Shown piece by piece: positions 24,153 to 43,874 of a stretch of 64,000 bases of DNA. The stretch comes from Nitzschia sp. DOCU1 (lineage: Eukaryota; Bacillariophyta; Bacillariophyceae; Bacillariales; Bacillariaceae): positions 1,364,001 to 1,428,000 of the forward strand of contig OX595999.1 in assembly GCA_951394045.1 (NCBI GenBank), read 5' to 3'. The notes beneath the pieces were generated by a model. The model ran no database searches, had not been told where the DNA came from, and saw only the letters and a list, made by a program, of their open reading frames with translations. Position numbers and translations under genes: made by a program. Within the stretch, counting starts at the first letter, position 1. Every line of letters begins with the position of its first letter.

Positions 24153-25613
24153 ATGACTGTCCTCACTACTTCTAGCATTGGAGGAAGGCTATTTCTCATC
24201 GTGCTCCAATTCGGCATTCTTTTGTCGGTCGCAGCTCAGGCTTCCGACAGTAGTACCATTACCACTGAAAATACCAGCACAATGGACAATACTAGTACTC
24301 AACAACAGTCAATCGACTTTGGGATGGTAGAATGGGTACGTTCCAAAGGTGGATATTTTAACGACAAGCAGGTCATTCGACGGTTAGATCCCGACGATCC
24401 AACATCGATCGTAGGTATCTTTGCCGTGGAAGAAATTAAGCAGGGTGAATTGCTGTTGCGAGTGCCATGGGATTGTATCATTACTCTCGAAGATGATTAT
24501 GAACCCATAGATGAAGATCTCGAAGATGATACCGGTTTGGAATGTGGAACGGCACGTCATTTAGCCAAGGAAATGCTGCTGGGGAAGGACTCGAGCTATG
24601 CCCCATACGTCTTGTATTTGTTAAATCAGCCAGCTGGTCAACTACCGAGCGCGTGGTCCTTCCAGGGAAAATCATTGTTGCAATTCCTGTTGGGAGGGAC
24701 ACCCAGTGAACCACAAATTCCGCCAGCAGATGCCATGGATTGGATTGACACCGATTGGTATCATAATTGCGATGGTGACCCCACCGACGATTTTGCCACA
24801 CAGGCGGCCATGTTGGTGTTGCAACGTGCCGATGATGAACTCATGGTACCAAGTAAGTAGCTAGTACAGTTATTATGTGTGGGTGGTGCTGCTGTAATGT
24901 TCCATTCCAAACGACAACTCTCACTTCCCTGTTTCCTTCTTGTCCCTATATTATAAGTCTACGATCTTTATAATCATCGAAATGGGCACTACCACAATAC
25001 CATCAGCAAGATCAATATGGACGTGAGTCATGAAATGCGAGCCAAACGAACCATTCAGGCAGGAGAACAGATTCATAATTCGTACAATCTTTGTGCCGGT
25101 TGTGAAGGACGCTGGTCGGATTATGGTACCTCGCATATTTTCAAAGATTATGGCTTTGTTGAACTTTACCCACAACGATGGGTACTGGATGATCCCCATA
25201 TCGAATTTGATTTGCATGAAATTGAAGAAGAAGATGGAAAGGTCCGATATGAACTAGAGTGGAATCCAATTTATCGTCCTCACAATGCATCACCCCACAG
25301 GAGGTCGCTCATGGTGACACGCCTCAAAAGCGAAATCAAGCGGTTGCATCAACTTCGTCAGACCATAGCTCGAGATCCAGATATTCGTGATCATGAATGG
25401 AATCAAGTCTGGGAATATCAAGAAGCTGTGATTCGAGCATTCGCTATGGCCGTCAATCATATGGTGGACAAAGAAGAGGACAAGGTACCAATTTGGTACC
25501 CACGCGATGGGGGAGTCTGTACACTGCATAATTCTTCGTCGTCTGTTTGTGTTGGAGATCACAATGACGATCTTACGGCATCGAAAGAAGATAAGAACAA
25601 TGATGAAACGTAG
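24153..25613 (+). CDS. SET-domain protein, truncated member of fusion family (locus A)
   Basis: Exon 1 is 24153-24852 and exon 2 is 24958-25613 (105-bp intron), joining to 451 aa through MVP|IYDLYNHRNG. The protein has a signal peptide (RLFLIVLQFGILLSVAAQA) and a SET domain of the LSMT/SETD3-6 type: IVGIFAVEEIKQGELLLRVPW, YAPYVLYLLNQP, the YDLYNH motif, GEQIHNSYN (catalytic Tyr) and KDYGFVELYP. It stops at 'EDKNNDET', where locus B continues into the aminopropyltransferase-like domain. Past the stop (25615-25710), degraded sequence still matches that domain's start. The copy has therefore lost the polyamine-enzyme half; whether the SET-only product is functional is unknown. The start was chosen by alignment with locus B (26103). 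Confidence 0.78.
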
Positions 25614-26102
25614 GACATTTGCTTGATGATCTTGGATGATAGATCACGAGTTTGTTCTTGCTATCGACCATACTATCATGAAGTCTTTGTGCATTATCCG
25701 GCCAGGTAGCTGAGACAATGTGGCTAGTTCTTAGCTACTGACCGGAAAACATGAATAAATTCATTGAATTCACCTCTATGATCTAGTCTAGTCGATGACG
25801 TCGCAACAATATGCCTGTCCGCCGGACGTGATTGAATCGACAACTTCGACCTTTCTGATTCACGCATGCACTTCTTCGATGCGGTGGGTCTCGAGTGGGC
25901 AACGTTCAAACCGACATGATGGTGCGAGATGAAGATGTCGCCTTCATCATTTCGTCTCATTGATATCTCTCGATGTGAGATATTGAATGATGTGTTGATC
26001 TCTATCATCATTCGTTAACGTTCTTTGGTCGTGAAGTGATTGCGTTGATCAAAACCCCCGGCTCACCCGTAATCTGCCCCCCTAGTAGAATTCGCAAGCA
26101 GA
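25614..26102. other. Decayed tail of locus A, then duplicated promoter of locus B
   Basis: 25615-25710 resembles locus B at about 27667-27760 (GACATTTGCTTGA and TTCTTGCTATCGACC), but with a deletion and frameshift. From about 25770 the sequence repeats the upstream region of locus A at a constant offset of 1950 bp. Confidence 0.7.
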
Positions 26103-29100
26103 ATGGCTGTTCTTGCTTCTAGCTTTCTGGTCGTCCTCCAATTTGGCGTTCTTTTGTCGGTCACCGTTCAAGCTCACGATAGTGCTACTATTACTAATGA
26201 CAATGCCAGCACATCGGCCAATGCTGCTAGTAGTCCACATCAAGAATCAGTCGACTTTGGCATGGTCGCCTGGTTGCGTTCCAAGGGAGGATATTTTAAC
26301 GAGAAACAAGTCATTCGAAGGTTAGATCCCGACGATCCAACATCGATCGTAGGTATCTTCGCCGTGGAAGAAATCAAGCAGGGCGAATTGCTGCTTCAAG
26401 TGCCATGGGATTGCATCATCACTTTAGAGGATGATTATGAACCCATAGATGAAGACCTCGAAGACCAGACTGCCTTGGAATGTGGCACGGCGCGTCATTT
26501 GGCAAAGGAAATGCTGCTGGGGAAGGACTCGAGCTACGCCCCCTATGTCTTGTACTTGCTGAATCAGCCAACTGGTCAGGTACCGAGTGCGTGGTCTCCT
26601 CAAGGAAAAGAGTTGTTGCAATTACTGCTGGGTGGGACACCATTCGAACCACGAATTCCTCCAGTTGCCGCCATGATTTGGATAGACGAGGATTGGTATT
26701 ATCATTGCAATGGTGACCCCGACGACGATTTTGCGACACAGGCAGCCATGTTGGTATTGCAGCGGGCCGATGACGATCTCATGGTACCAAGTAAGTAGCA
26801 CAGGTGATGGTGCTGCAAATGTTCCACAAAGGACCAGAACTCACTGCCTTCCTTCCTTCCGCCCCACCCCCACCCCCCACGACAGTCTACGATCTTTATA
26901 ATCATCGAAATGGGCGCTACCATAATACCATCAGCAAGATCAATAGGGACGTGAGTCATGAAATGCGAGCCAAGCAAAACATTCAAGCGGGAGAACAGAT
27001 TCATAATTCGTACAATCTTTGTGCCGGTTGTGATGGACGCTGGTCGGATTATGGTACCTCGCATATTTTCAAAGATTATGGCTTTGTCGAACTTTATCCA
27101 CAACGATGGGTACTATATGATCCCCATATCGAATTCGATTTACATGAAATTGAAGAGGAAGATGGAAAGGTCCGATATGAACTAGAGTGGAATCCAATTT
27201 ATCGCCCTCAGAGTGTGTTTCCAGGGAAAGTGATGCTCATGGTGGCACGCCTCAAAAGCGAAATCAAGCGGTTGCATCAACTTCGTCGCACCATAGTTCG
27301 AGATCCAGATATTCGTGATCATGAATGGAATCAAGTCTGGGAATATCAAGAAGCTGTGATTCGAGCATTCGCTATGGCCGTCAATCATATGGTGGCCAAG
27401 GAAGAAGACAAGGTACCCATTTGGTACCCAAGCGATGGGGGAGTTTGTTCGCTTCATAATTCTTCGTCGTCTGTTTGTATTGGAGATCACTATGACAATC
27501 TCATGGCATTGAAAGACGATGAGGACAAGTCAACGTACAGTTACAGCACGGAAGCATGCAATACTACCGAGATTGATTCACAGTTTGATGACTATGAGGT
27601 TATCAGTCAAGTGAATTCGTCCTATCAGCAATTGACCTTTGAAGGGCGGACTCTCTCAGATAAAGAGGACATTTGCTTGACCTTGGATGATACATTACAA
27701 ATTTGTTCTTGCTATCGACCGCACTATCATGAATTCTTTGTGCATTATCCTGTTAGATATCTGGACCAAGTGAAACGGGTACTCTTTGTCGGTGGGGGCG
27801 ATTCCATGCTACTGCATGAGATTTTGAAATATCCGTCCTTAGAAAAGGTAGTTGGTTTGGAACTGGACCTGGTTGTGACCCAAACGAGCTTTCAATACTT
27901 TCATACCCAGCCCCATTTTGACGATTCTCGCGTCGAATGGTGGTTCGGCGATGCCAGTCGAACTCTCGAACTGCTCCCTCGAAACTATTGGGGGTCTTTT
28001 GATTTGGTCTTAGTGGATCTTTCCGAAACGACCGTGGCATCGTTTGACACTGTTGCACTACTATTGAAGCCAGAAGGAATCTTGGTCAAGAATGAAATGT
28101 ATTTGCCTGCCATGGCCAAAACGTTCGAGCACACAATGCAAATAGCCTTTACAAGTCCCAAAGTTTGTCATCAAATCTTGTCCTTGGGCAGTCAAAGCGT
28201 TGATTTCTTGCATACGTCACTCGGAGGAAATCATCACGGCAGTATGGCAACGTTGGTGTTACCACCACAAATGACGGAGGAAACAGCAAACGACCGTTAC
28301 AAGTACATTCATGACTACCACAAAAGAAAAATTCGAAAGACGACAAGGCAGCGTCAAGCCGAAGGCGCTCCTCCCAGCAGTGTTTTGGTCATCGTGAACG
28401 CCGAAGATATTTCCGGCGATTGGGCGACACTTCCGGTCACTCTATCTTTGGCCGTTACCGAGATCGGTTTGACAGTGCTAGGTGGCCAAAGTTGGAGTGG
28501 GGCGAGTGCGAACATTCTACTCCGCGAGGGTTACATTCAACTACAGTACTGGCCCGAGAAAGGATCCGTGGCTTTAGACGTTCTCCTTTTGTCTAAATTG
28601 GACCTACTCGACAAACTGGAACAAGTATTGAGGCAGGGATTGAGGAGCAAATCGTTGTCGTCTTTTCGACTGGTTGTTGATGGCATGTCCGGAACCGAAG
28701 ATGACTATGCATCACCCCGCATTGGCCCTCAAAGTGCAATATCCAAAAACGACGAATGCGCAGCCAATGCTGAGTCTCTATCCAAGTCATCCTCTCCTCC
28801 CACGTTACCTGTATTAGCTGCACATGTGAAAGAAATCTTTTTTACGGATGACAAGTCTGTCCATGTGGGTTTGATCCAAGACGCTCCTGATGCCGAGACG
28901 GTTCGCGCCCTGGAGACTACGGGCTTTTCAGTGCAGACCTTTGCTGCATGCCCCGGTATCCTCGGTGCAAAAGACCCCGTTTCCGAGGCTACCGCCATGT
29001 ATGCGTGCGAAGAATCCATTGCTTTGCAGCTTCAAGAATCGTCAAAGCCAGACCTGCTATTGTTGGATACAACGGTTCCATTGCAAATGGGCCAGATATG

Positions 29101-29902
29101 GCACAGTGTCCTGACGAGGAGTGCGAATCGACATGCCATGTTTCACAATGATACTACTACCATGCGGAAGTTCGCCATTTTGACAGTGGGGAGTCACAAT
29201 GCACCATGGCAATCCAACGTTTTAGACCGTTGTCGCCGTCAAGTTCGTGACGACCCCATCTTTCTCGGCCAGCTGAAGGTCGGTGGCGGCGTTGGGAACG
29301 TCGGTCTCCTAGTAAGCGGCGATGAATCGTTTGTCGCACACCTTATCCAATTGGAAACCAAGCTAGGTGGCGACGCCGAAATTGAAAGCATTTTAGGAGG
29401 CTATTCATCTTCGGGGGCGCCGCATGAACTACTAGGGTCACAAGAATTCCAACCGCAGCACTATGATCGGCAAGCTGCTGCCCGGCAGCTTACCAATCAA
29501 GTCGTCTTGGCACGACAAACAGTGGTCCAATTCATTGTTGGAAGAACTCCTCGAGTGACAAGTGTGCAAGATGTTTTGCTCCTTTGCCTCAAGGAATTGA
29601 ACTGGATCCCTGCCGTCGACGACGGCGATAACGGAGTTTTGCGCGTCGTATCTGGTAGCGATATTGACGGAAATGGTGCCATGTTTGCATCCACCTTTTC
29701 CAAAGGTAGCCTGATGGTAGTTTGGGATGGCCAGAATTCCCTGATTGTGAATTTGATCCTTCTCATAGCCGACGGCGACGCAAAGACAAATGCCGACAGG
29801 TTTCTCTTGAGCCTGTCCAAGCACCTTGGTCGATTTGAAGCCCAATTGCGGCTTCGAAATGATATTCCTCGTGGAACAGGACGTGTCGTTACATTTCCAT
29901 AG
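26103..29902 (+). CDS. SET / aminopropyltransferase-like / SpeD-like fusion protein (locus B)
   Basis: Exon 1 is 26103-26790 and exon 2 is 26886-29902 (95-bp intron), giving 1234 aa. Order: signal peptide (VLQFGVLLSVTVQA); SET domain to about residue 300 (YDLYNH, GEQIHNSYN, KDYGFVEL); a linker; a spermidine-synthase-like Rossmann domain with VLFVGGGDSMLLHEIL (about 530), VVGLELD, FDDSRVEWWFGDA and FDLVLVDLSET (about 600); a SpeD/AdoMetDC-like domain with REGYIQLQYWPEKGSVALDV (about 775), where the self-cleaving Ser of the ESH motif is Gly; a second Rossmann-like stretch (PDLLLLDTTVP, about 950); and a second SpeD-like domain (KGSLMVVWDGQNS, about 1170) ending PRGTGRVVTFP. It lacks the second intron of loci C and E. 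I infer a secretory-pathway enzyme acting on lysines or polyamines. Confidence 0.8.
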
Positions 29903-30340
29903 AGCAGGACGCCGCATCTGTGTCTACTTTTACAATAGTTGTGATAGCATCGATAGCTTCTTGTCCGTCATCGTGACCAAGATCCATCATTGTGCGACCG
30001 AAGTGCGCGAACCGTGTCCAACGGTCATCAAATGAAACGCTCGTTAACTGCAATCTTCTAAATTTCCTCTGGATTGAGTCTTATCCCGCCATTTTTATTT
30101 AGATAAATGGTCGCACAAGGCAGCCTACCGGCATATCACATATGGCATCGTCGCATGCGCATTTCTGTATCGACCACCACACGAAGCGCGGATCCATGTG
30201 ATGGACACATGCACGGTTCGTATCCGCGCAAGGATCATTGCCCACCTTTCATCGAGCAGAGCGACGCATTGTTTTGTGTCCTTAATCTCTTCCCACCCTC
30301 TCGACGGAAGGAGTGACCCTTTTGCATTCATACTTACACC
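29903..30340. other. Intergenic region between loci B and C
   Basis: The 3' flank of locus B and the promoter of locus C. It does not resemble the TGACGTC-containing promoters of loci A and B. No ORF of note. Confidence 0.45.
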
Positions 30341-33300
30341 ATGAGGTTGTGCTGGGGAGCCTTTACGGCATCCGTGCTGCTAGTGGCAGCAGCAACGACT
30401 GTCTCTGCAGCAGCAGCTGCTGCCGAGGACACTAGGGTTTCTGACCATGGCGTTTTTGAGTGGATCGGCAGTACGGACGGTGGGTATTTCCATCCCGATC
30501 AAGAGTTTCGCATGGATCCGGTGAGTGGCGTCGCTGGAATCTTTGCCAAGAAATTTATTCCCAAGGGAGAAGTCTTGTTGTCAGTGCCTTGGAGTTTGAT
30601 CCTCAAGTCCGATGACATGACCGAAGAAGGACAAATGTGCTGTGGTACCGTCAAGACGGTCGCACGAGAAATGAAAAAGGGCAGTCTTTCGGAATTTGCT
30701 CCCTACGCAAGCTACTTGAATTCTCAGCCCGATGATCATGTTCCGAGTGCTTGGAGTGCACAAGGAAAAGAGTTACTTCAAGCATTGGTGGGTGGAGAAG
30801 TGACGGATACTTTGATTCCTCCGGAAGAACCTACCGAGTGGTTGGAGGCGGACTGGTATGGTCGTTGTCGTGGAAGTCGAGCGGACAAGCTGGCAGCCAA
30901 AGCGGCCATGATGGTAGTGCAGCGTAGTGATGATATTCTCATGATTCCAGGTACGCAGAAAAATATGCCTTGTGTGTGTTGTAATTGTGGGGTGATCATT
31001 CTAACACTTTTGTGTCCTTTAGGTTACGACATGTACAATCATCGCAATGGCAAGTATCATAATACCGTGTGCACTACTCACCATGGAGAAAAGCATGTCA
31101 CGGTAGCATCTCGAGACATTCTTCCTGGTGAACAGATCCACAATAGTTACAACCGATGCAAGGAATGTGGGGGCCGAAAGGTTGGATACGGAGCCGCAGG
31201 TGCGTGATGAAAAATTATATCCATTCATCCGTATGACTTTTCACTCTCCTCACTTTTTTGTGACTTTTTGTTTTTTAGAAATTGTGCGTGACTATGGCTT
31301 TGTGGAACTCTTTCCTCAAGTCTGGCACTATGACAATGGCAACCTGCAATTCGAGCTCGACATTGGAGAAGAGGATGGTGGTCTGTTCAACCTCAAATGG
31401 CAGCACGGCCATGTCCCGAACGCGGATGATCGTCCGGGTGCGCTTGTATTTTTGAAACGCCAAATTCGTCGTTTGCGCCAAGTCCGAAATGTCAACTACA
31501 AGGATGGCAATCCAGGCATGACGGAACATGAGTGGAATGTTTCGTGGGCCTTTCAACGGGCCAACATTCAAGCCATGACGGTAGCCATTGGTGCGTTGGA
31601 AGCTATTGAAGCTGGAACATTGTCAGAGAAGGATGTATACACGTCGAATCTTACGGTCAGTGACTTTGAGGAGGACAAACCCCACTACGATGACCTGGAA
31701 TGGGAGTTTGATGATCTCGAATATGTGAACCCCACCTGCAACAATCGAGAGATTATGAAGTTCCACGACCATGCCATTGTGGAAGAAATCAAGACTCACT
31801 ACCAGAAGATGAATTTTGCCATTCACCCCACTACCTTGGATGTGGTCATGGACCTGGATAACATTGTTCAAATTTCGAGCAACTATCGTCCCCAGTACCA
31901 CGAATACGTTACCCATGCCGCCGCCCGTTTCGTTCCAAAGATCAAGCGCGTCATCTTCATTGGAGGAGGAGATTCCATGTTGTTGCACGAAACACTCAAG
32001 TATCCCGACTTGGAACTCGTTGTTGGCCTCGAATTGGACCAGACGGTAACCCGCAAGTGCTTCAAGTACTTCCGTTCGTCTCCTCACTTTGACGACCCTC
32101 GTGTCGAGTGGTGGTTCGGAGACGCTACTAAGAGTTTGCTCTTATTGCCCAAGGAGTACTGGCAGTCCTTTGATTTGGTCCTGGTCGATCTTTCCGAGAC
32201 TGTCATGTCCTTGACGGTCACCAAGGAGCTCGATGTCTTTGATGCTCTCGCCTTGCTTCTCAAGCACGACGGAGTCATGGTCAAGAACGAACTCTACATG
32301 GAACCGTTCAGCGCGGTCTTTGACTACTCTATGGATATTCTGTATGAAAGTCCTGTGATTTGCAGTCAGGTCATTGCTTTTGGAAGCAACAAGGTCAACT
32401 TTGTGGAAGATGAGGTTTACGACCATGGAATTCAGACCTTTTTGTATAAGAATATGCACGACCCCGACACTCGATACCAGTATGCTCATGACTTCCGCAT
32501 CAATAATGCTACCCTGCAGGGAAAATGCGGAAAAGTTTTGAAGAAGGAAGAGTTGGTGGAACAATTCAAGTCAGCGGGTGTCGTGGAAATTGTCGACGCC
32601 GAAATGGTCTCGGCCGCTTTGGACGAAACCCTGATGGACAAGTTCAACAGTATTCTTCAGGGGCAAGGGTTCCAGCCGATTTCCAAACCCGTCTATGAAA
32701 AGGGATTGGGTATTATCGTCATGAAGGAAGGATATCTCATGGTCCGCATGTTCCCCGCCGAAAAGTATTGCAACCTGGATATCAATGTGTGGGGCAGCTT
32801 CCACAAGTTGAAGGTATTGCGTCAAGCCCTAACAGATGCCTTGGGCAGTGGTCTTGTTTCCAACTTTAGAGTTGTTGTCGGAGGCATGTACGGATCAGCG
32901 ACTTGGGAGGAAGATCGTGATATCATTGGTCCGCAGATTATTCAGCCTCGTAATTGCGAGATTCCAATTCTTGCCGAAGCTCCGGATATTGGCAAAGAAC
33001 TGATTACAGCCGCCTTTGATGAAAGTATGAAGCTGGTCAACTCTAACGAGATCACGGCCATTGTTATCTGCGAGAACTCCGACGATTGCTTTGCCCTCGA
33101 GCTCTTGAAGAAATACGACACGGTCCGCAAGGTGGTCAACATTTCGGCCTGCAAAACATTTGTTGCGGGTGACGTAGACTCCCACTACAGGTGTGAAGTA
33201 GAAAAGACGTTAGACATTAAGAAACAGATGGGAAATGACGCGGCTGATTTGATCATTTTGGACTCGAGTGCCAGCAAAGAATTGGTCCAAATTGTGAACA

Positions 33301-34250
33301 GTATCCTCAGCCGAGAGGACTTTCACAAGAACATCATTCGGGAGAAAAATACAGCTATGGTGTGGACTATGGACGCCGAAAAGGAGGAGTACCAGCGATA
33401 CTTTTTGGATCGTTATCGCAAACAACATGCTTGGGATCCCCTGGGCCGTGCCGAATATTGGATGCAAGATGGTACCAAGGCTCTGGAATTCGGTGTAATG
33501 CAGACCGAAGACTACGAGGTCTTTTCCAAATTGTCGACAATGGAAGCCGCACTCAACGAAATGTTCAAGGACAAGGAAAATGTGAAGGTTGAGCTTCGTG
33601 GAATCTATGGAGGACTCTATGAATTCAAGCACAAGTGGAACCCCCCTGAGTTCCTGCAGTCGGACTACGAGACGGAAGATGACTTCAAGCAATACTTTGA
33701 TCAAAAGCCCTTGGCGCGCCACACTATCTTCCAATTGGAGGACGCTGATGCCAACCGGGCCTTTGAGTTCGGCAAAGACGCGCTAAACAGTGTGTTGGCC
33801 AAGTCGCTCGAAGCCGTTCAATTTGAGTGCACTACGCGGTACACCTACGTGGGCGTAGGAGAAGGCGCTGTCATGGTCTGCTTGAATCCCGACAAGGGCA
33901 GCACCATTTTGACTTGGGACGGTCGCAAGCATGTTGATATTAGCTATTACTTGAATGGTGATGCCCATGGCGAACCCGACAAGTTTATTGGCGCCTTTAT
34001 TTATCACACCGGACGCAAGTTGAAGGCTGCTCTCCGCGACAACTTTCCTCGTGGAACGGGACGCGTGATCAACTTTAGAGAAGATATGATGACGCCGGAG
34101 GAATTGGAGAAATTTTATGAGAGCCTGGATGAAAAACTGGAACAAGAAAAGAAAGAATATGAAGTTGACGATGATGAGGAGGAGGATGAAGAAGTAGACG
34201 AGGCTGCGCTCGTTGACGAAGTTGTAGATGATGCCATGTCAGAGTTGTAA
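30341..34250 (+). CDS. SET / aminopropyltransferase-like / SpeD-like fusion protein (locus C)
   Basis: Exons are 30341-30950, 31023-31199 and 31279-34250 (72- and 79-bp introns), giving 1252 aa. It starts with a signal peptide (FTASVLLVAAATTVSAAAAA). The SET domain shows VAGIFAKKFIPKGEVLLSVPW, PGYDMYNHRNG, GEQIHNSYN and RDYGFVEL. The spermidine-synthase-like domain has VIFIGGGDSMLLHETL (about 490), VVGLELD, DPRVEWWFGDA and FDLVLVDLSET (about 560). The first SpeD-like domain has KEGYLMVRMFPAEKYCNLDI (about 747, no self-cleaving Ser). A Rossmann-like stretch (ADLIILDSSAS, about 918) and a second SpeD-like domain (EGAVMVCLNPDKGS, about 1124; PRGTGRVINF) follow. A unique acidic Asp/Glu tail (about 1220-1252) ends MSEL. 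It is the most canonical copy, with the dcSAM-site-like GGGD and D..E residues kept. Confidence 0.82.
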
Positions 34251-35015
34251 ATCCATCACCGGGTAGAATGCATTACCTATTTTTGTGTCTGTTGTTCCAA
34301 CGACGACGTAGCTACTACTGCATCTATCATACGGGCAGTCTGCAGCATTCCCCGAAATGCTACACTCTAGTAGTAGCTTTAATATTAGTTTGAGTTGAGT
34401 TGGTCAATGATGAAACCCCATCGCTGAGGTCCCGCGGCTGCGTATCCTCTTATTTCGTTTTACCCGTCGTTTCGCTGGGCCCGGCCCAGCCAAAAGTTCC
34501 ATGTCTTCTCTCGAAAGTCCGCCATAAACTGCATAAACTGTTTAGCTTGGAAGCGAGGCCACGCTCTCCGAAAATGCGCCCCACGCGATAGCTCGTATTA
34601 TCCACATGGACTACGACTTTTGCATTCAACACGAGTTATGGCGTGGGGCGCATTTTCGGAGAGCGTGGCCTCGCTTCCAAGCGAAACAGTTTACAAGTTC
34701 TGCGGGGCGGAAGTTGCCTCATGCACACAGCAGGACTTCTGGGTCATTGGACGAGTGTGTAGCAGCACAGGTTTTTTCGATGCGGAGTTCTAAAAACCGT
34801 GTGGTCTCAAGAAGCAGCCAGGAGATGCATTGTTCCCTTACCCTGAACAGAATGTAGCTATTGTGTGACCACGACAATGCGATGATGCTAAACAAGGTCC
34901 CTACTGTCATGTAGTCGTCGTGATCCATTCGCATGGGAAGAAAACGACAACCAAAGCCCTCTTCCTCCCACACCCAGGCAGCTTTTGTTCCGCATGGGCA
35001 CGCTGGCTAGCAAAA
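34251..35015. other. Intergenic region containing a long hairpin
   Basis: Between the 3' end of locus C and the 3' end of TRM10. Its only marked structure is the inverted repeat at 34534-34693. No coding potential was recognised. Confidence 0.5.
34534..34693. repeat. Long near-perfect hairpin (63-bp arms, 34-bp loop)
   Basis: The left arm 34534-34596 and right arm 34631-34693 are inverted copies matching at 60 of 63 positions by eye. They share the core GAAGCGAGGCCACGCTCTCC, and the spacer is 34 bp. It could be a foldback/MITE-type element or an expressed hairpin RNA precursor. No target-site duplication was identified. Confidence 0.85.
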
Positions 35016-36140
35016 TCATTTTCTCCCTTCTGCCGCCTGGCCTTGGGTCAAATCTTTCTCTTCCAAACTTTCCTTGAACTTGGCGTCCTTGCGACTCGGT
35101 AATACATCCTGAAACGCTTTGGTCCAATCATTCCCATACTGCCGACATTTCAGAAGAATATCAAATACATGATTGCAAGTCAAGACTTTGGTCGACTCCA
35201 TTTGAGCTAAATACTCGTCGAGTGGTAGCCTGGCCGTGGCAACCCCTAGGGCATTTGCTCGGTCAATCGCTACCCGCTTGAGACGATTCCGATCGACAAT
35301 GCCCCCAATTACATAAATCTTAGCATCTTCTAGCTTGTCGAGGGTTGTTTCGGCGTCGCTAGTCAAGTAGACAATCTTGTTCTTGTTGTTGGATCGTTGA
35401 TGATCGTCTTCTTTTGCTGCTGGATGATTGTAATAATAGTCTTCCAACGACTTGTCTGTACAAGTAAACAGCCGATTCTTCCATTCCGGAAAGCCCGCTT
35501 CTTTTTGTAATAAGGACAGCGTCGTATCACCCACGCTAGTAATAGCCACCAAACAAGGATTCGATGCCCGCTTATTGTAGGAATAACAATATCGGATTTG
35601 TTGTGCCAAACTAGCGAGTTCGCGTGGATTCATGAGCGATTCAAACGAACAATCGACACAAATTTGAAAGGATTGTTCGGCCAATGGTCGTTTGACGGTC
35701 GTCCATAGTTGCTCCAATCGTTGCTTGCGATGTCCCAGTGCCGTTCGTTCGGCCAGCAAACGTTGTTCGGCTTCCAAGTCGCGTCCTGCCGCATTGGCTT
35801 GAGCGTGTCGTTCTTGTTTCTTTTGACGTTTCTTGTCGAGCATCTTTTCTCGTTTCAGCAAGCGTTTGCGTTGCTTTTTGGATAATACTACGGCGTCGGG
35901 GGATGCATGATGATCATCTGATGAAGAAGCTTCCTTCGTTTCAGAATCCCCCATTGCTGGAGACGACGATGATATCGCGGCTTGGTTCGTAGTATTCTTA
36001 TTCAAAGTATCACTGCTGTTTGTGTTGTTTTCGTCGGTGGACTGATCGCGGTCAGGAATTGCCGCCAACATCACCGCCGCTTCGGTGCTGGCGTTCGTTC
36101 GTCTTGCTTCTTGGCAAACATCCTTATCATCATCAACCAT
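35016..36140 (-). CDS. TRM10: tRNA (guanine-9-N1) methyltransferase, TRM10 family
   Basis: The 374-aa protein has an Asn/Ser/Asp-rich N-terminus, then a strongly basic coiled segment (SKKQRKRLLKREKMLDKKRQ) typical of TRM10 tRNA binding. The SPOUT methyltransferase domain follows: QICVDCSFESLM, QIRYCYSYNKR, VYLTSDAETTLD, YVIGGIVDRNRLK and ARLPLDEYL, then LTCNHVFDILL near the C-terminus. Family members methylate N1 of purine 9 in tRNA using SAM. The VYLTSDA...IGGIVDRN block holds the SAM-binding knot and the Asp used in catalysis. Intronless. It lies on the opposite strand within the SET-fusion array and has no evident functional link to it. Confidence 0.9.
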   Translation of the reverse strand: MVDDDKDVCQEARRTNASTEAAVMLAAIPDRDQSTDENNTNSSDTLNKNTTNQAAISSSSPAMGDSETKEASSSDDHHASPDAVVLSKKQRKRLLKREKMLDKKRQKKQERHAQANAAGRDLEAEQRLLAERTALGHRKQRLEQLWTTVKRPLAEQSFQICVDCSFESLMNPRELASLAQQIRYCYSYNKRASNPCLVAITSVGDTTLSLLQKEAGFPEWKNRLFTCTDKSLEDYYYNHPAAKEDDHQRSNNKNKIVYLTSDAETTLDKLEDAKIYVIGGIVDRNRLKRVAIDRANALGVATARLPLDEYLAQMESTKVLTCNHVFDILLKCRQYGNDWTKAFQDVLPSRKDAKFKESLEEKDLTQGQAAEGRK

Positions 36141-36477
36141 CGTCCAAGCCTTATCACTTCAATAAGAACAACATCAACGCAATCAGTTTGCAATCATCAT
36201 CAGGAAGACGCAAACTAAAAGCTCATGGGCGATCCATCGCAGTCTCGCCGGTGGCTCTCGTTGATCCAAATCCAAAGATACGCCGACGAACGTCTTGCCG
36301 TACGGCGAGGTGCTGGATCGTACGTACCACCAATGATAGCCATGAGTCCTATGTACCAGCTTAACCCATGTCAGTTAAGTCGTTGGAGTCGAGTCGCTTC
36401 GTGTGGTTACTGTAGTCTTCCGACGTTGAACGGAACGCAGCGGAGGCAAAACATAACAGATTTGACCATGGCGAGAT
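36141..36477. other. Divergent intergenic region upstream of pseudogene D
   Basis: Separates TRM10 (-) from the pseudogene (+). Parts near 36325 and 36420 (ATCGTACGTAC; CCGACGTTGAACGGA) resemble the upstream region of locus E near 39672 and 39757, so the promoter was duplicated along with the gene. Confidence 0.5.
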
Positions 36478-37590
36478 GCTGTCGATTGTACCTGTGCCTT
36501 GCGGCTTTAGTTACGTCAGGAGCAGTCACTCCCACCCATGGTGGCAGTATTAGTATCGACAGCAGCAATGACGAAACCTGTGACAATGACAAGGTCGTCC
36601 CAGCGTCTTCGTTTTCTCCCCTGGGCCTGGACAATGGCGTCTCACGAAGCAATGCCATCAAGGCAGCCTTTATACCAATCGGGTCGTCCCGATCCCCTCT
36701 GCATACTTTAAACCACCCATCTTCCATCCATTCGAACATTTGATTGGGTGAAAAGTGAATCCATTGAGAATCAACCGTCAGGTCAGGGTTTCGATTATTT
36801 TGAGCCCGTGTTTTGCCCACAATTTCCAGCAACAAGTCCTGTCCGGCTGTCGACTATACCGACGGTATTTGATTATCCTCTTGAAGAATTCGAGCGGGTT
36901 CTTCTTCTTTGACGACATATTCCCAGGGCACGCGACAAAGGACTTCGCCTTTTAAAATTCGTTCCTTGGCAAAGATACTTCTCGAGAGACTCGTGGGGTC
37001 GTTGGGATCCGCATGTCGAAATTCTTGTTTGGGATTATAGTAGCCACCTGACACGACATTGTGCATCCACGACAACCGATGCCTACATTATGATTCCAGC
37101 GTATGATTTTGTAAGTAATGAAGGAGTATTTCCTCGCAGAAATAACCGAGAGAAACTCGATTTCTTTGCGAATGAACGAATGACTGACTTTTTTTTTTCA
37201 TGGGCTATTTAGTAGAATCACCGAAACGGCAAATGACAAAATGCCGCCACCCACCGATTATGCAGATGGGCAACCCCACGAGACGAAAACAAACCGAACG
37301 ATTGAAGCCGGGGAACAAATCTATATTAGCTACAATCGATGTATACAATGTTCGGGCGAACCTCATCGATTCGGTCCGACGAGTTTTGATCATTGGTGGT
37401 GGGGCTTCCTTCATGGTGCATGAAGTAATGAAATACAACTCTACGCTGGAGCTACTGGTAGCCATTGAAGTGGATCCAATAGTGGCACGAGCCTGCCACG
37501 AACGCTTTTACGTGGATCCACGATTTGACGATCCTAGAGTGTAGTAATGGTGGTGTGGATAGTCAGGAGAGACACTCTCCGTCCTTCCAT
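36478..37590 (+). pseudogene. Rearranged pseudogene of the SET fusion family (locus D)
   Basis: The sequence is closely related to locus E. The first ~165 bp (36478-36642) match the start of E, including its signal peptide. Then 36643-37074 matches E 40127-40661 in inverted orientation, with about 100 bp lost inside (near 36855-36880) and a Trp codon changed to TAG. From 37075 the sequence is forward again (TACATTATGATTCCAGC and the first intron), with stops at the Tyr and Trp codons of the following exon (TAGAATCAC; TGA). After CIQCSG (near 37352) it jumps about 750 bp forward to the Rossmann domain start (IDSVRRVLIIGGGASFMVHE). It ends soon after a stop at 37543. It cannot encode the family protein. 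Confidence 0.88.
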
Positions 37591-37838
37591 CCACCATGAT
37601 AGTACGGTTGCGAAGGCATTGCCCAAACAATCTATCCTCGGCGCTTGAGCAAGAAGAAGAAGTAGCAATAATAATAGTCCGCTCGCGAGACACACCGTGG
37701 AAGACAATGCGTGGTACTCCAGATGCTACCAGTTTTATAAACTGTAGCAGGAATGCTGTCAGCATCCGTAGTAGTGTCATGATCTTATTCGTCAAGCAAA
37801 GCGACAAGCTCTATTCGATTACAGGCGTAGTGCATATC

Positions 37839-39464
37839 CTACTGGCACACATTCTCAGCTGCGTCGTTGCGTAATTTCATTATAAAATTGGAAAAGCTTG
37901 ATCCTTTCGCTTTGACAAAACCAATGCTTGCGCATGCAGCAATCTGTTGATCCAAGAAAAGCCCTGGTGTCACGAGATCTGCATAAGGAAAGTTATCGTC
38001 CGTTCTGTTAAGATCTTGAAGTTTCCGTTGAATATCCTTGCTGAACAAGATCTCCAACGTTGTCCCATAAGTTGTAAACAAGGTGTCATTCAGCGACGCT
38101 GCTCTTTTTGTGAACAAATCTTTGGAGTCCAAATAACCCAGATCCGTGGCCACAAAGACCCCGATTCGGGTGTAATTACTACCATAGTTCTTGGAGGCCC
38201 ATTCACGCACTAAACTCGAGATGCTGTCCATTCCATACCGAATGGCATCAGCAACGGCTTCGGGTTTTTTAAAGGGGCCATCAGAACCCCGAATGTGGAC
38301 CGATGCATACGGTATGCCTCCCCAGCTATATTGGTGAAGAATGTGACGTGCCGCATGCCGGAACCATTTGCAGAGGCGGGGCTTGTCGACTGTTGCTTGT
38401 CGGGGTCGGATCCTTGTGGCGAAAGAATAGTTTCGGGGAGAGAAAGCGTAAAAAGAATCCAGCAGGGTCCAGATGGCATAATCCTTCATGGCCCGTCCCA
38501 CACTCCATAGATCCCGCACAACCACGGTGTTGTTCACTTTGCGCCCTTGTTCCACAGTGACAATGGTTGTATCGGAGAGGCCTTCCAATTCTGGCTGACC
38601 TACCACCCAACGAGTATTGAAATGATGGTACTCCGATTCCACCACCCACGAATCCCACCTTGAGAGTGAAGGATAGATGTTCTGATAGAAATCCCGAAAG
38701 TCCACAGTCGAGACGAGCGGCAGTGTAGACTCTATATCCATTGCCATATCCACTCGAAGGTAGAGCTCAGTTTTCAACTTGGTCAGGTAAGCCTTCCTCA
38801 GGTCATAGTCTACATGAAACGTGTGAGTATGATCCATGTTGAGAACATCCCGATAATGCAAATGGTGGTGCGGGACGATGGGCGGCAAAATCAACGTCCG
38901 GTTAGTCGCCCACGCAATAAAGTAGGCAGAATCCAAACAACCGATTTGATTGCCAAATCCTTCTTGGACAAAGTACTGAAGAAATTTGGTGTCGGATGAT
39001 GCTTGGTTTCTGCTGTCATGGTCAAGAGTAGTAGATCCGTGGTCTGTACTTCTTGTGATGCCGGTGCTGTGGAGGGAGACGTTATGATATGGCCTATGGT
39101 GGTCTCGGGAGGCAGTCCTCGGCGTGTTCTTGCTGGTTGAGATTGTGGCGGCTGTGGTGCTGCTGCTGGTACTGGCGGGGGTGGAGTGGGCGGCAAGAAC
39201 GAAATCAAAAAATGGCATTAACTCCCTAACTTGAGAGATGAATATTAATATCGCCATCAGGGGGATCATGCATAGTAGTACCACCAGCAGAAAGCCTTGT
39301 TTGGACGCCATTCTCGATTGTTCGTGTTTCTTTGTTAGTAGTAGGCGCAATGACGCGTATCCTCCTCGTCTCATCCAGCAGGCAATCGGGAAAAAGGAGG
39401 CTGAGCGGGGGCGAAGAACAAGTTTGAGACTCTGGTGGTGCCACTGCACTCTTCGCCCTCCCAA
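37839..39464 (-). CDS. O-fucosyltransferase-like glycosyltransferase, type II membrane
   Basis: The 541-aa ORF has a hydrophobic signal anchor (about residues 57-78). A Met just before it (codon 52, 39311) is probably the true start. The lumenal part begins with a Ser/Thr/His-rich stem. 'FVQEGFGNQIGCLDSAYFIAWATNRTLILPP' resembles the N-terminal motif of GDP-fucose protein O-fucosyltransferases, and 'YASVHIRGSDGPF' resembles the HxR nucleotide-sugar-binding motif. A Golgi/ER enzyme transferring fucose to protein or glycan is the best guess; a broader GT-B fucosyltransferase is also possible. Several NxS/T sites are present. Intronless and on the opposite strand between pseudogene D and locus E. 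Confidence 0.65.
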   Translation of the reverse strand: MGGRRVQWHHQSLKLVLRPRSASFFPIACWMRRGGYASLRLLLTKKHEQSRMASKQGFLLVVLLCMIPLMAILIFISQVRELMPFFDFVLAAHSTPASTSSSTTAATISTSKNTPRTASRDHHRPYHNVSLHSTGITRSTDHGSTTLDHDSRNQASSDTKFLQYFVQEGFGNQIGCLDSAYFIAWATNRTLILPPIVPHHHLHYRDVLNMDHTHTFHVDYDLRKAYLTKLKTELYLRVDMAMDIESTLPLVSTVDFRDFYQNIYPSLSRWDSWVVESEYHHFNTRWVVGQPELEGLSDTTIVTVEQGRKVNNTVVVRDLWSVGRAMKDYAIWTLLDSFYAFSPRNYSFATRIRPRQATVDKPRLCKWFRHAARHILHQYSWGGIPYASVHIRGSDGPFKKPEAVADAIRYGMDSISSLVREWASKNYGSNYTRIGVFVATDLGYLDSKDLFTKRAASLNDTLFTTYGTTLEILFSKDIQRKLQDLNRTDDNFPYADLVTPGLFLDQQIAACASIGFVKAKGSSFSNFIMKLRNDAAENVCQ

Positions 39465-39954
39465 TGACGAACCAGCGTATCCGTTTGCTTTCTATTAGAA
39501 TTGATGATTTGTGAGAGGAAGACATGGAAGTCATAATAGAGCATCTCTCACTCACTTATCCGCGCATGGTGCTCACAAAGAAGAAATCGTGTTGGAACCA
39601 GTAAAACGTGAATGCTGTGATGCATGATCGATGCGCCGGGCTTATGACCCGTTTGACCAATGGGCGCAGGATCGTACGTACTACCATCCAATTTAGCCCT
39701 TGTATTTTGAATCGTCTGAATCGTTTCATGTGGTGGGCTTCGTCTCCCGACGTTGAACGGACCCCAACGCGGGCGCGGCGCCCCGTCGGCACTTCCAAAA
39801 CTTCCGTAAGAATGACTGGTACCTGGTACTACCGGTAGAGCCACGCCGGCGCGGTCACACATTGCATTCAAAGAATCTTTCACCAGTGCAGCCTCTCCTA
39901 TTTGACATTAACTCTATCACCATCATCTCAGGAGACAAAACATAAGATTTGACC
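39465..39954. other. Divergent promoter region (fucosyltransferase-like / locus E)
   Basis: 490 bp between divergent genes. It shares blocks with the upstream region of pseudogene D and has GGTACCTGGTACTACC near 39819. A TTG at 39949 is in frame with locus E, but the ATG at 39955 is the proper start. Confidence 0.5.
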
Positions 39955-42900
39955 ATGGCGAGATGCTGTCGATTGTACCTGTGCCTTGCGGCTGTAGTTA
40001 CGTCAGGAGCAGTCACTCCCACCCATGGTGACAGTATTAGTATCGACAGCAGTAATGACGAAAGTTGTGACAATGACAAGGTCGTCCCAGCGTCTTCGTT
40101 TTCTCCCCTAGGCCTGGACCATGGCGTCTTGTCGTGGATGCACAATGTCGTGCCGGGTGGCTACTATAATCCCAAACAAGAATTTCGACATGCGGATCCC
40201 AACGACCCCACGAGTCTCTCGGGAATCTTTGCCAAAGAACGAATTTTAAAAGGCGAAGTCCTTTGTCGCGTGCCCTGGGAATATGTCGTCAAGGAAGAAC
40301 CCGCTCGAATTCTTCAAGAGGACAACCAACTGGCCTGTGGCATGGTCCGGGAATTAGCAAAGCAAATGACGCTGGGGGCTGCATCCAAATATGGACGCTA
40401 TGTGGAATATCTCAAGCAGCAGCCCGATAATCAAATACCGTCGGTATGGTCCACAGCCGGACAGGACTTGTTGCTGGAAATTGTTGGCCAAACACGGGCT
40501 CAAAATAATCGAAACCCTGACCTGACGGTGGATGCTCAATGGATGCACTTTTCACCCAATCAAATGTTCAGTTGGATGGAAGATGGGTGGTTTAAAGTAT
40601 GCAGAGGGGATCGGGACGACCCGATTGGTATAAAGGCTGCCTTGATGGCATTGCTTCGTGCGGATGACTACATTATGATTCCAGCGTATGATTTTGTAAG
40701 TAATGAAGGAGTATTTCCTCGCAAAAATTGTTGGTTCACCTGTTGCTGACCTTGTTTGTTGTCGTGTACTGCCTTTCCATGAACTATTTAGTACAATCAC
40801 CGAAACGGAAAATGGCAAAATGCCGTCACCGATTATGATGATGGGCAACCCCACGTGACAAGAGCAAAGCGAACGATTGAAGCCGGGGAACAAATCTATA
40901 TTAGCTACAATCGATGTATACAATGTTCGGGGCGGCTCGAAGAAACCTATGGCACAGCGGGTACGTACCTTTGAAGATGACTAGTATTCGAAATGCTGCG
41001 GATGCTGAAGGACGTGAAAGAGAATCTTACAACATTTCGTTTCTGGCGTTCTCTATTTATATAGAGATCTTTCGAGATTATGGCTTTGTCGAAGAGTTTC
41101 CTCAGCGATGGCACTACTACAAATTCAACACAATAGAGTTTGAATTACTTCATGACGAATTGTACGGCTATTACGAAGTCGAATGGGTGAATAGACCAGA
41201 ACCAGGTGACTTGGCAGAAAGGGTGGAACAATGGCTTATCGAACAAGTTATTCGTCTGGAACGTTTGTGGCATGTCAAGTACCAATCCGTCAATCGTGAA
41301 GAGCTTGGTATCCCAAAGGACGAATGGGACAAGGCATGGGTCTTTAGCCAGGCGAATATCGTTGCCATGAAATGTGCTATCAATGCCCTGCGTGGGAATA
41401 ATCGAACGTTGGCGTCCGAATTGGAACTTTCGTCCACAAATCTCTATTACAACTTGGAGAAATTGGAGTATTGGCAAAATGTCGATTCAGGAGCACTGGA
41501 ATGCCGCCTTGAAGAATTTGACAAGTATAGTCCGTCTGACACTGTGTCGTCCTTGATGCAAACGCTCGACTTTTCGGAATTCGACAATAATGGCCGGGAC
41601 GTTTGCATGGACCGAAATCAAGAACTTCATGTTTGTTCCAGCTTTCGACCGTTTTACTATGAACAATTTGTCCACCCTATGGCTAGCCTCATCGATTCGG
41701 TCCGACGAGTTTTGATCATTGGTAGCGGGGCTTCCTTCATGGTGCATGAAGTAATGAAATACAACTTTACGCTGGAGCTACTGGTAGCCATTGAAGCGGA
41801 TCAAACAGTGGCACGAGCCTGCTACGAACGTTTTTACGTGGATCCACGATTTGACGATCCTAGAGTGGAATGGTGGTATGGAGAATCAGGAGAGGCCCTC
41901 TCCTTCCTTCCAGACTCGTATTGGAATTCCTTTGACTTGGTGCTGGTGGACATGACCAAGGCGAACTTTCCAGCCACCTTCCGCAACGGCATGGAATTCA
42001 ATCGTCTTGTCAACGACAAGGGAATTTTCGTGTCCCACAACAACCAGATGGTAGAAATGAGCCGTGCTTTCACTTATGCAGCGCGAATTATATATCAGGT
42101 GATGCCAGGGTGTGCCCAAGCACTTACTTTGGGAAGTCATTCGGTCGATTTTCTTCATGCGACAGCCAAAGACCACGAAATCGAAACGTTTGTGTATGAT
42201 GCTTCATCCATGATGAAGGAAAATCGGATGGGTTTCATTCACGACTTTCAAAAAGGCGGTGTGCCTGCTGCTGCTAAAGTGAAGCGAAAAATCTTCAAAG
42301 TGGTCTCTTCCGACGAAGTTGGAAGCATTCAACTAGTGGAAGTTGCTGGCGTAACTTTGATCAGCCCTAGGGGCATGACGGCAATCATCAAGATTGTTCT
42401 CAACGATCAAGGTTTTACCGAGCCGACACCGATACCCCTTTCGAGTTCTGATTCCGTTTTAGTCATCATGACAGAGGGCTACGTTCTCGCTCGATTTCAC
42501 CCTGTTAACAAGTACGTTGCGTTGGATGTCTATCTTTCAAGTCGAACGTCTGACCTGGATATGCTTAAGAGGGCTCTCGTGGAGAAGCTGGGAACTGCAC
42601 TCTCTACGATACGACTTGTCACCAACGGAATGGAACGTCCTGAAACGATCAGGGCTTTCGGAAAGGAAAGAACCCTGCCTGTAGTCGAGTCTAGCACGCT
42701 CACGACGTTTGCACCTCTAGATGCAGCTACTGTGCCAATACTTTTGCAAGAGATTGGCAACGTTGTGCTTCCGGGACGGAATCATGCCTTGGTCGTATGT
42801 CAGGGAGGCGTGGACTGCCCTCTCGCTCAGAGCGTTAAGGATGCTGGTGTCGCCGGTTCAGTCCACGTGCTAGAAATGTGTCCCGGTCTCCAAGAAACCA

Positions 42901-43874
42901 CAGAGGCGTCTTTGCAGACGGCAATGATTGCATGTGAGACGAACGTTGCATCATGGATTGCAAAGACCATCGAATCGAAAGAGATTATGGTCGATGCCAT
43001 ATTTTTGGATGCGGGTCTCTCTCCCCCTTCTCTGCAAGTTCTGGACGTCCTTTTCAACCTTGATGCTGTCGGTAGTTCTCGTTTCCTTGAGAGGAAAGAA
43101 ATGTACTTGTTGGCTTTGACTTCAGGCGCAGCGGTCGAACATCGCGGATTTGCTGAACGGTTCCATCGAATTGGGGCAGCAAGGAAACGGCCCAAATGGT
43201 GGTTTGCAAAGCCGAAGGAGGCGTCCGTCAAGGCAGAATTTCAAGTTGTTGACGAGAACAAGGCCTCAAATTCCCTCATTAGTCTGGTAGTTCAGGGAAT
43301 GGAGAACACGAAGACTTCATTGTTGGGTCTGGAGACGGATCTCTCCAACAAACTCGGCAGCAAAATGACTGTGCGAATTCAGCATTTGCAAGGAGGACCC
43401 CGCGAAAGGATCCCAGTACGCGCTAGCCATGTTCATTCCGACTACGAGCCCGAGGATGGCCCTATGCTTCCAGGTCATGCACTCGGGGCCCAGTCGTTTT
43501 TCCAAGCTGACAAGGCGGATGAATCGCAAGTCGGTATCATTACTATGGATTTGTTGTTGGAGGCCGTTCTCGAAACGTTTGCAAGACTAGATTATGTGTA
43601 TCCTTCTCATCAAATCGTAAACGGGAATACTGCAGTCTTTGAATTCGACATGGGACACCTTGTCGTTTCTCGATTTCCCAACGAAAGGGTTGATTTCAAC
43701 ATGTTTCATTGGTGTCCCGACGACGAATGCGTATCTGATGATCTGAAGGAGTTTGAGAAAGAGTTGTTTTCGCAAATCCAGGATCTCGTTCTTTTTTCCT
43801 TTGACATTATTCCGCGTGGACCTCACAAGGTCGTGGATTTTTATGCCATGGTGGAAGAAGAAGATGAGTCTTAG
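39955..43874 (+). CDS. SET / aminopropyltransferase-like / SpeD-like fusion protein, divergent (locus E)
   Basis: Exons are 39955-40695, 40792-40960 and 41065-43874 (96- and 104-bp introns), giving 1239 aa. The first intron sits 11 bp later than in loci A-C, between YDF and YNH. Signal peptide: MARCCRLYLCLAAVVTSGA. The SET domain is intact by motif: LSGIFAKERILKGEVLCRVPW, YNHRNG, GEQIYISYN and RDYGFVEEFP. The spermidine-synthase-like domain has changed key residues: GGGDS became GSGAS (about 523), GLELD became AIEAD, and VDLSET became VDMTKA (about 593). SpeD-like domain 1 has TEGYVLARFHPVNKYVALDV (about 773) and domain 2 has GHLVVSRFPNERVDFNMF (about 1166; IPRGPHKVVDF). The SAM-like site may not work, so it could be a pseudoenzyme partner or have another substrate. 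Confidence 0.78.

Follow-up and report, generated by a model that had tools for sequence, protein, structure and literature searches.

The window analysed here comprises 64,000 nucleotides of the diatom Nitzschia sp. DOCU1 (contig C15:1364001-1428000, from an assembly of 52 Mb in 63 contigs), and its main subject is a group of five related loci, A to E, built around a fusion of a SET methyltransferase-like domain with domains of polyamine enzymes. Intron-containing genes identify the stretch as eukaryotic. A preliminary description of the window had placed all five in one orientation; they do lie together on the plus strand, but the start codon of D is found at 36468 and not at 36478. Exact ATG codons open A, B, C and E at 24153, 26103, 30341 and 39955; the last base of E is 43874. 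Three of the loci, B, C and E, are whole fusion genes with canonical GT-AG introns and no internal stops, in which the order of domains is SET, PABS1 (aminopropyltransferase), SpeD1 (S-adenosylmethionine decarboxylase-like, hereafter AdoMetDC-like), a Rossmann domain and SpeD2 (again AdoMetDC-like). The shorter product of A is likewise encoded with a GT-AG intron and without internal stops. In these fusions SpeD1 has lost the pyruvoyl serine of AdoMetDC. The features of the five loci are as follows.

24153-25613, plus: locus A; exon 1 24153-24852, intron 24853-24957, exon 2 24958-25613; SET-only open reading frame of 451 amino acids
24153 onwards and about 25612-25722, plus: signal-peptide-like start and PABS remnant of A
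26103-29902, plus: locus B; exons 26103-26790 and 26886-29902; 1234 amino acids; SET, PABS1, SpeD1, Rossmann and SpeD2
27599-28303, plus: PABS1 of B; GGGD, E.D, GDA, DLSET and YHE kept
28391-28765, plus: SpeD1 of B; glycine in place of the pyruvoyl serine (REGY)
29486-29899, plus: SpeD2-like domain of B
30341-34250, plus: locus C; exons 30341-30950, 31023-31199 and 31279-34250; 1252 amino acids
30341-31750 (end approximate), plus: signal-peptide-like start and SETD3-like SET domain of C with a helical C-terminal part; fold from the homologue P0067
31776-32480, plus: PABS1 aminopropyltransferase domain of C; motifs kept; fold from P0067
32589-32963, plus: SpeD1 of C (AdoMetDC fold); glycine in place of the pyruvoyl serine (KEGY)
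32982-33608, plus: second Rossmann domain of C (PABS2-like); PABS motifs not seen
33690-34088, plus: SpeD2 of C, second lobe of the AdoMetDC-like pair; lysine at the aligned pyruvoyl position
36442-37589, plus: locus D; partial and scrambled copy of E; start codon at 36468
39955-43874, plus: locus E; exons 39955-40695, 40792-40960 and 41065-43874; 1239 amino acids; SET motifs kept, PABS1 motifs broken (GSGA, GES, DMTKA, YYE), SpeD1 with TEGY
41532-42233, plus: degenerate PABS1 of E

At the domain level, the identities and the order given in the preliminary description are backed by predicted structures. These show a SETD3-like SET fold first, followed by an aminopropyltransferase (PABS) and then by two AdoMetDC-like domains with a Rossmann domain between them. 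The SET fold is accompanied by the Asn-His and Tyr motifs of the SETD3/LSMT type, kept in B, C and E, and the Pfam SET profile exceeds its cut-off in C (5.7e-9); in A, B and E, where the SET part is split between exons, it stays below threshold. Pfam PABS is above cut-off in B (7e-15), C (6e-18) and E (5.4e-10), and the aminopropyltransferase motifs (GGGD, E.D, GDA and the catalytic Asp) are complete in B and C and fail in E. The best score against the NCBIfam equivalogs for spermidine synthase and polyamine aminopropyltransferase is 95 bits for a cut-off of 260; by this measure the PABS domain is a divergent relative of the equivalog and not an equivalog itself. Matches to Pfam AdoMet_dc are weak (B 5e-4, E 0.07, C none), and in the genome scan B passes narrowly (25.3 bits for a cut-off of 25), E fails and C is unlisted. 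The predicted SpeD fold is nevertheless that of AdoMetDC, and the two lobes jointly match the two-lobed human enzyme. Sequence homology was detected by hhalign neither between SpeD1 and SpeD2 nor between PABS1 and PABS2, and phmmer with the C-terminal piece of C against the PDB returned chance matches only, so that SpeD1, Rossmann and SpeD2 of C are assigned from predicted folds only. The arrangement of human-type spermine synthase, a dead SpeD followed by a motif-bearing aminopropyltransferase, is not found: a SpeD does precede a Rossmann domain, but PABS motifs were not seen there in the alignment, read by eye. That the domains belong to one protein and not to separate transcripts is favoured by the MMETSP-sourced entries P0040, P0177 and P0182, from other organisms, which join SET and PABS in one open reading frame.

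The state of SpeD1 was followed across 222 rows, made up of 210 database proteins and 12 genes of this genome. SpeD1 lacks the pyruvoyl serine of class 1b AdoMetDC (S63 in T. maritima), and the position is occupied by glycine in every one of the 222. HMMER places Ser63 of the T. maritima enzyme on this invariant glycine in a weak match (E 0.14; 1tlu, 1tmi), and the register is confirmed by three MAFFT modes against the four intact SpeDs of this genome, whose serine faces glycine in all 10 of the own-genome SpeD1 rows aligned. The His68 position holds Arg in 205 rows and His in eight, and the Cys83 position holds Trp in 214; both are functional sites of AdoMetDC. The ESHxSxHT motif is absent from all 210 database proteins. 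In SpeD2 the aligned residues of seven own-genome rows are K, K, M, K, Y, L and S, a single serine in seven, and none carries the ESH motif. The alignments of single-domain pieces drew on those that could be recovered: SpeD1 is missing for two of the 12 own genes and PABS1 for one, the PABS1 alignment used 10 of 11 pieces and that of SpeD2 seven of 12, locus A was left out of the motif alignments, and P0001, 99% identical to C, is not independent of it. Non-processing of the S63A mutant is stated in the title of 1tmi. Because the pyruvoyl serine is lost, the SpeD pair of this family should not decarboxylate S-adenosylmethionine (SAM), against the preliminary description, in which SpeD acted on SAM.

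In a second type of fusion in the same genome SpeD is mostly intact. Six other SpeD genes adjoin PABS (L032-L037, on contigs C1, C7 and C6), and ESH(V/I)SFHTW...CG is kept in four of them (C1:267k, C1:762k, C1:927k and C7:2554k), the remaining two looking altered (DAQ and ISG at C1:887k, MGHISIHAW at C6:2062k). A class-2 AdoMetDC gene lies at C2:3613k. Judged by eye, several of the SpeD-PABS proteins have a membrane-anchor-like N-terminus. Their C-terminal extension is weakly SET-like (Pfam E 0.069 in one of the six pieces); a PDB profile search with this tail gave nothing meaningful and no PF00856 match is listed at those loci. Decarboxylated SAM (dcSAM) could hence be made in this cell, but on this evidence not by the proteins of the window.

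PABS1 keeps its motifs, E excepted. Across the family alignment GGGD, E.D, GDA and the catalytic Asp hardly vary, and they align with Plasmodium spermidine synthase; one own gene on contig C6 carries GGGT in place of GGGD. In E, by contrast with the equal activity that had been assumed for all copies, the motifs are broken, and the GGGD and DLSET motifs are altered as well in its five closest relatives (P0121-P0125), with which it forms one clade (FastTree support 1.0). Because the relatives share the alteration and the clade is supported, E belongs to a retained pseudo-aminopropyltransferase line and is not a lone decaying copy. From their sequences, members of the E type are probably methyltransferase or regulatory partners.

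Regarding the breadth of the family, the 210 distinct database proteins come from three homologue lists (the best 120 of 617, all 13, and the best 120 of 301), each drawn from about 7990 scored candidates. The legible organism names among the listed matches are of diatoms only, many rows being nameless and several names incomplete; they include Pseudo-nitzschia, Nitzschia, Cylindrotheca, Odontella, Corethron, Chaetoceros, Attheya, Seminavis, Phaeodactylum, Fistulifera, Entomoneis and Epithemia. This genome holds 12 members with open main exons: B, C and E in the window, two on C16, two at C15:1.69 Mb, three on C11, and one each on C6 and C9. The nine outside the window are represented by their longest open reading frame only. 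Three further members are truncated or broken (A, D and C9:368k). Several variations on the architecture were observed. Five own-genome members (L013-L017, on C11, C6 and C9) carry about 125 extra amino acids before SpeD2, which resemble, by eye, two small repeated barrel-type units; the open reading frame of L014, the one scanned, has no Pfam match there. P0127 of Odontella aurita, 1688 amino acids long, has some 350 extra C-terminal residues that resemble by eye a further Rossmann methyltransferase, with no Pfam call. The precomputed annotation of P0150, P0166 and P0168 contains a PF01549 domain, and the NCBI record of P0143 (Seminavis robusta) bears the name 'Putrescine N-methyltransferase'. 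A cluster of SET-domain matches lies at G000:C6:284k-303k, of which 297.5-302.5k matches the SET part of the fusions.

The loci had been described as a tandem, locally expanding array. Five neighbours are indeed present, but other genes intervene and a local expansion is not borne out by their divergence.

35016-36158, minus: tRNA m1G methyltransferase gene, between array loci
37839-39491, minus: open reading frame of 550 amino acids between D and E, with no Pfam match

By eye, the latter is a possible glycosyltransferase. Just upstream of A, two tandem histidine-phosphatase genes (PF00300; 21086-22060 and 22402-23595) share 89% identity across 761 nt. The window gave no match in Rfam and tRNA scans, and NCBIfam profiles added nothing but PABS below its cut-off. 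Pairwise identity is 34% between C and B and 29% between C and E. In a FastTree tree of 221 of the 222 rows (rows with more than 35% gaps were dropped), the nearest database protein lies at a distance of 2.09 from B, 0.03 from C and 1.64 from E, and the nearest own-genome gene at 2.52, 1.41 and 3.65. A recent local amplification of B, C and E was rejected, each being nearer to database proteins than to genes of its own genome. The deep nodes are poorly supported (0.0 for B plus C) and the nearest database proteins are mostly without name; P0001, the near-identical relative of C, may stem from this species or a sister of it. As read from sequence comparison, the neighbours of the array are old and only two duplicates are recent: A, which is truncated, and D, which is broken. 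No support for a bacterial or viral origin came from pattern scans, which gave 60 stretches in genome contigs and 70 in viral contigs with no confirmed relative; this negative is limited to the patterns used and does not prove absence.

Both duplicates have a legible history. A is 84% identical to B over 1.4 kb and keeps the SET open reading frame whole, with only about 110 nt of PABS. Its SET part gives a dN/dS of 0.18 against B (0.23 over all codons, bootstrap 0.16-0.33), which speaks against plain junk; A would have been constrained for much of its life and may still function as a SET-only protein. D consists of five pieces of E, four of them 91-96% identical and one 81% (37078-37356), and its dN/dS against E is 0.41, from only 277 codons. 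The middle of its SET exon (36643-37075) is inverted in place relative to E, with about 96 nt gone and breakpoints near E 40129 and 40660-40663, a pattern that reads as an in-place flip within the recent duplicate. Beyond E position 40931, D resumes at 41681, and it lacks most of the gene.

Of 110 proteins (A, B, C and E together with 106 homologues 1170-1320 amino acids long), 84 begin with a hydrophobic stretch, compared with 50 of 2200 internal 40-mers, and all four window genes pass this test. Silaffins enter the endoplasmic reticulum, and the lysines of silaffin-1A1 are all di- or trimethylated or bear N-methylated propyleneimine chains (PMC4557024). A secreted SET plus aminopropyltransferase would fit this chemistry, such lysines being methylated or propyleneimine-bearing. 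From the domains, motifs, predicted folds, lost serine and breadth of the family we infer, at a probability of about 0.5, secretory-pathway enzymes for silica amines with a non-catalytic SpeD pair and dcSAM coming from other enzymes. In this scheme the SETD3-like domain would N-methylate an amine, probably lysine, PABS1 would add aminopropyl units from dcSAM onto an amine acceptor, and both would jointly build or finish N-methylated oligo-propylamine chains for silica formation, the preferred acceptor being silaffin lysines rather than free polyamines. The two AdoMetDC-like lobes would pair in one chain around the degenerate Rossmann domain and serve as scaffold, dimeriser or regulator; the four intact SpeD-PABS genes and the class-2 AdoMetDC of this genome would supply dcSAM, and E-type members, devoid of PABS motifs, would act as methyltransferase or regulatory partners. 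The link to polyamines and silica that was drawn earlier is plausible, similar fusions being present in the literature. A search for a linked substrate yielded one six-frame stretch in the window that passed the Ser/Lys filter and was not gene-like. A more specific picture is rather doubtful: a secreted single-chain machine for silaffin lysines in which SET and PABS1 alternate on one chain, an obligate, catalytically dead AdoMetDC pseudo-dimer guides or gates that chain as it grows, and the E clade is a methyl-only partner setting chain length or terminating it.

PABS relatives of known function act on small amines, and the fusion enzymes could act on free polyamines only, namely putrescine- or ornithine-based long-chain polyamines (LCPAs), with SET methylating the free chain. 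C. fusiformis aside, diatoms are known to contain free LCPAs, usually N-methylated (PMC3820600), diatom aminopropyltransferase fusions were termed likely LCPA enzymes in JBC in 2025 (PMC12803844), and a salinity study of Skeletonema suggested SET-domain proteins as possible putrescine methylators (PMC11554505). This alternative is possible, if somewhat unlikely: SETD3-type SET domains are protein methyltransferases, and a protein-lysine acceptor would account more simply for the fusion. It is improbable that the proteins have no silica role and are secreted or endomembrane SET methyltransferases using polyamine-enzyme modules as ligand sensors. The absence of catalytic motifs from SpeD1, SpeD2 and the second Rossmann domain, and from PABS in one whole clade, would suit such sensors; the nearly invariant catalytic residues of PABS1 in the main family would not, and the legible organism names, all of diatoms, fit silica. 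A self-contained machine in which SpeD decarboxylates SAM and passes dcSAM to PABS is scarcely credible given the invariant glycine and the missing ESHxSxHT motif, although the AdoMetDC fold is matched across two lobes, reviews repeat the idea for diatom decarboxylase-aminopropyltransferase fusions (PMC6356823, PMC3820600), and it suits the own-genome SpeD-PABS genes with intact SpeD.

The enzymes proposed here, for silica amines with borrowed dcSAM, would matter for several reasons. The route to N-methylated propylamine chains on silaffin lysines and free LCPAs is unsettled in the literature consulted, and study of the diatom aminopropyltransferase fusions was still called for in JBC in 2025, in a paper that counts eight standalone homologues and 32 fusion proteins in Nitzschia inconspicua (PMC12803844). 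Splitting fusions with intact SpeD from the SpeD-altered family tells makers of dcSAM from receivers; assays giving the latter SAM only would fail for a trivial reason, and the E clade supplies a control in which the motifs are naturally dead. Genes that may or may not belong to the fusion family respond to conditions elsewhere: twelve SET-domain genes are down under salinity in Skeletonema (PMC11554505), and methyltransferase genes of N. closterium f. minutissima respond to silicon (PMC11151724).

Compared with known systems, the SET domain shares its fold and its Asn-His and Tyr motifs with SETD3, Rubisco LSMT and SETD6, weak sequence relatives (E 0.003-0.02), and differs in its signal-peptide-like start and its fusion to polyamine-enzyme domains. 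For diatom-specific SET protein methyltransferases credited to Nemoto 2020 (Mar Biotechnol), a part in regulating wall proteins and the functions of LCPAs has been suggested (PMC11554505, PMC11151724). Unlike class-2 AdoMetDC (human 1msv and 1jl0) and the trypanosome AdoMetDC/prozyme (5tvm), the fusions lack the conserved pyruvoyl serine and hold a Rossmann domain between the lobes. Human spermine synthase (3c6k, 3c6m), the top Foldseek match of the C-terminal half, is alike in combining a dead AdoMetDC-like domain with an aminopropyltransferase fold, and it cannot do without this dead domain, which acts through dimerisation (PMC12803844); here, however, two SpeD-like lobes are paired in one chain, the adjacent Rossmann domain is degenerate, and the motif-bearing PABS sits upstream together with SET. 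Also among the closest are the diatom fusions of AdoMetDC with aminopropyltransferase credited to Michael 2011 (FEBS Lett; PMC6356823, PMC12029483, PMC3820600), some of which carry a histone N-methyltransferase domain as well; they share the kinds of domains and the proposed LCPA role for silica; the differences are the order SET-PABS-SpeD-Rossmann-SpeD and the lost SpeD serine. A dead SpeD and a pseudo-enzyme clade were not found in the literature covered on diatom SET/AdoMetDC-aminopropyltransferases, beyond whose reach Michael 2011 and Nemoto 2020 lie. The architecture is already known in kind, and what may be new is the invariant loss of the serine, the pairing of the lobes and the pseudo-aminopropyltransferase clade.
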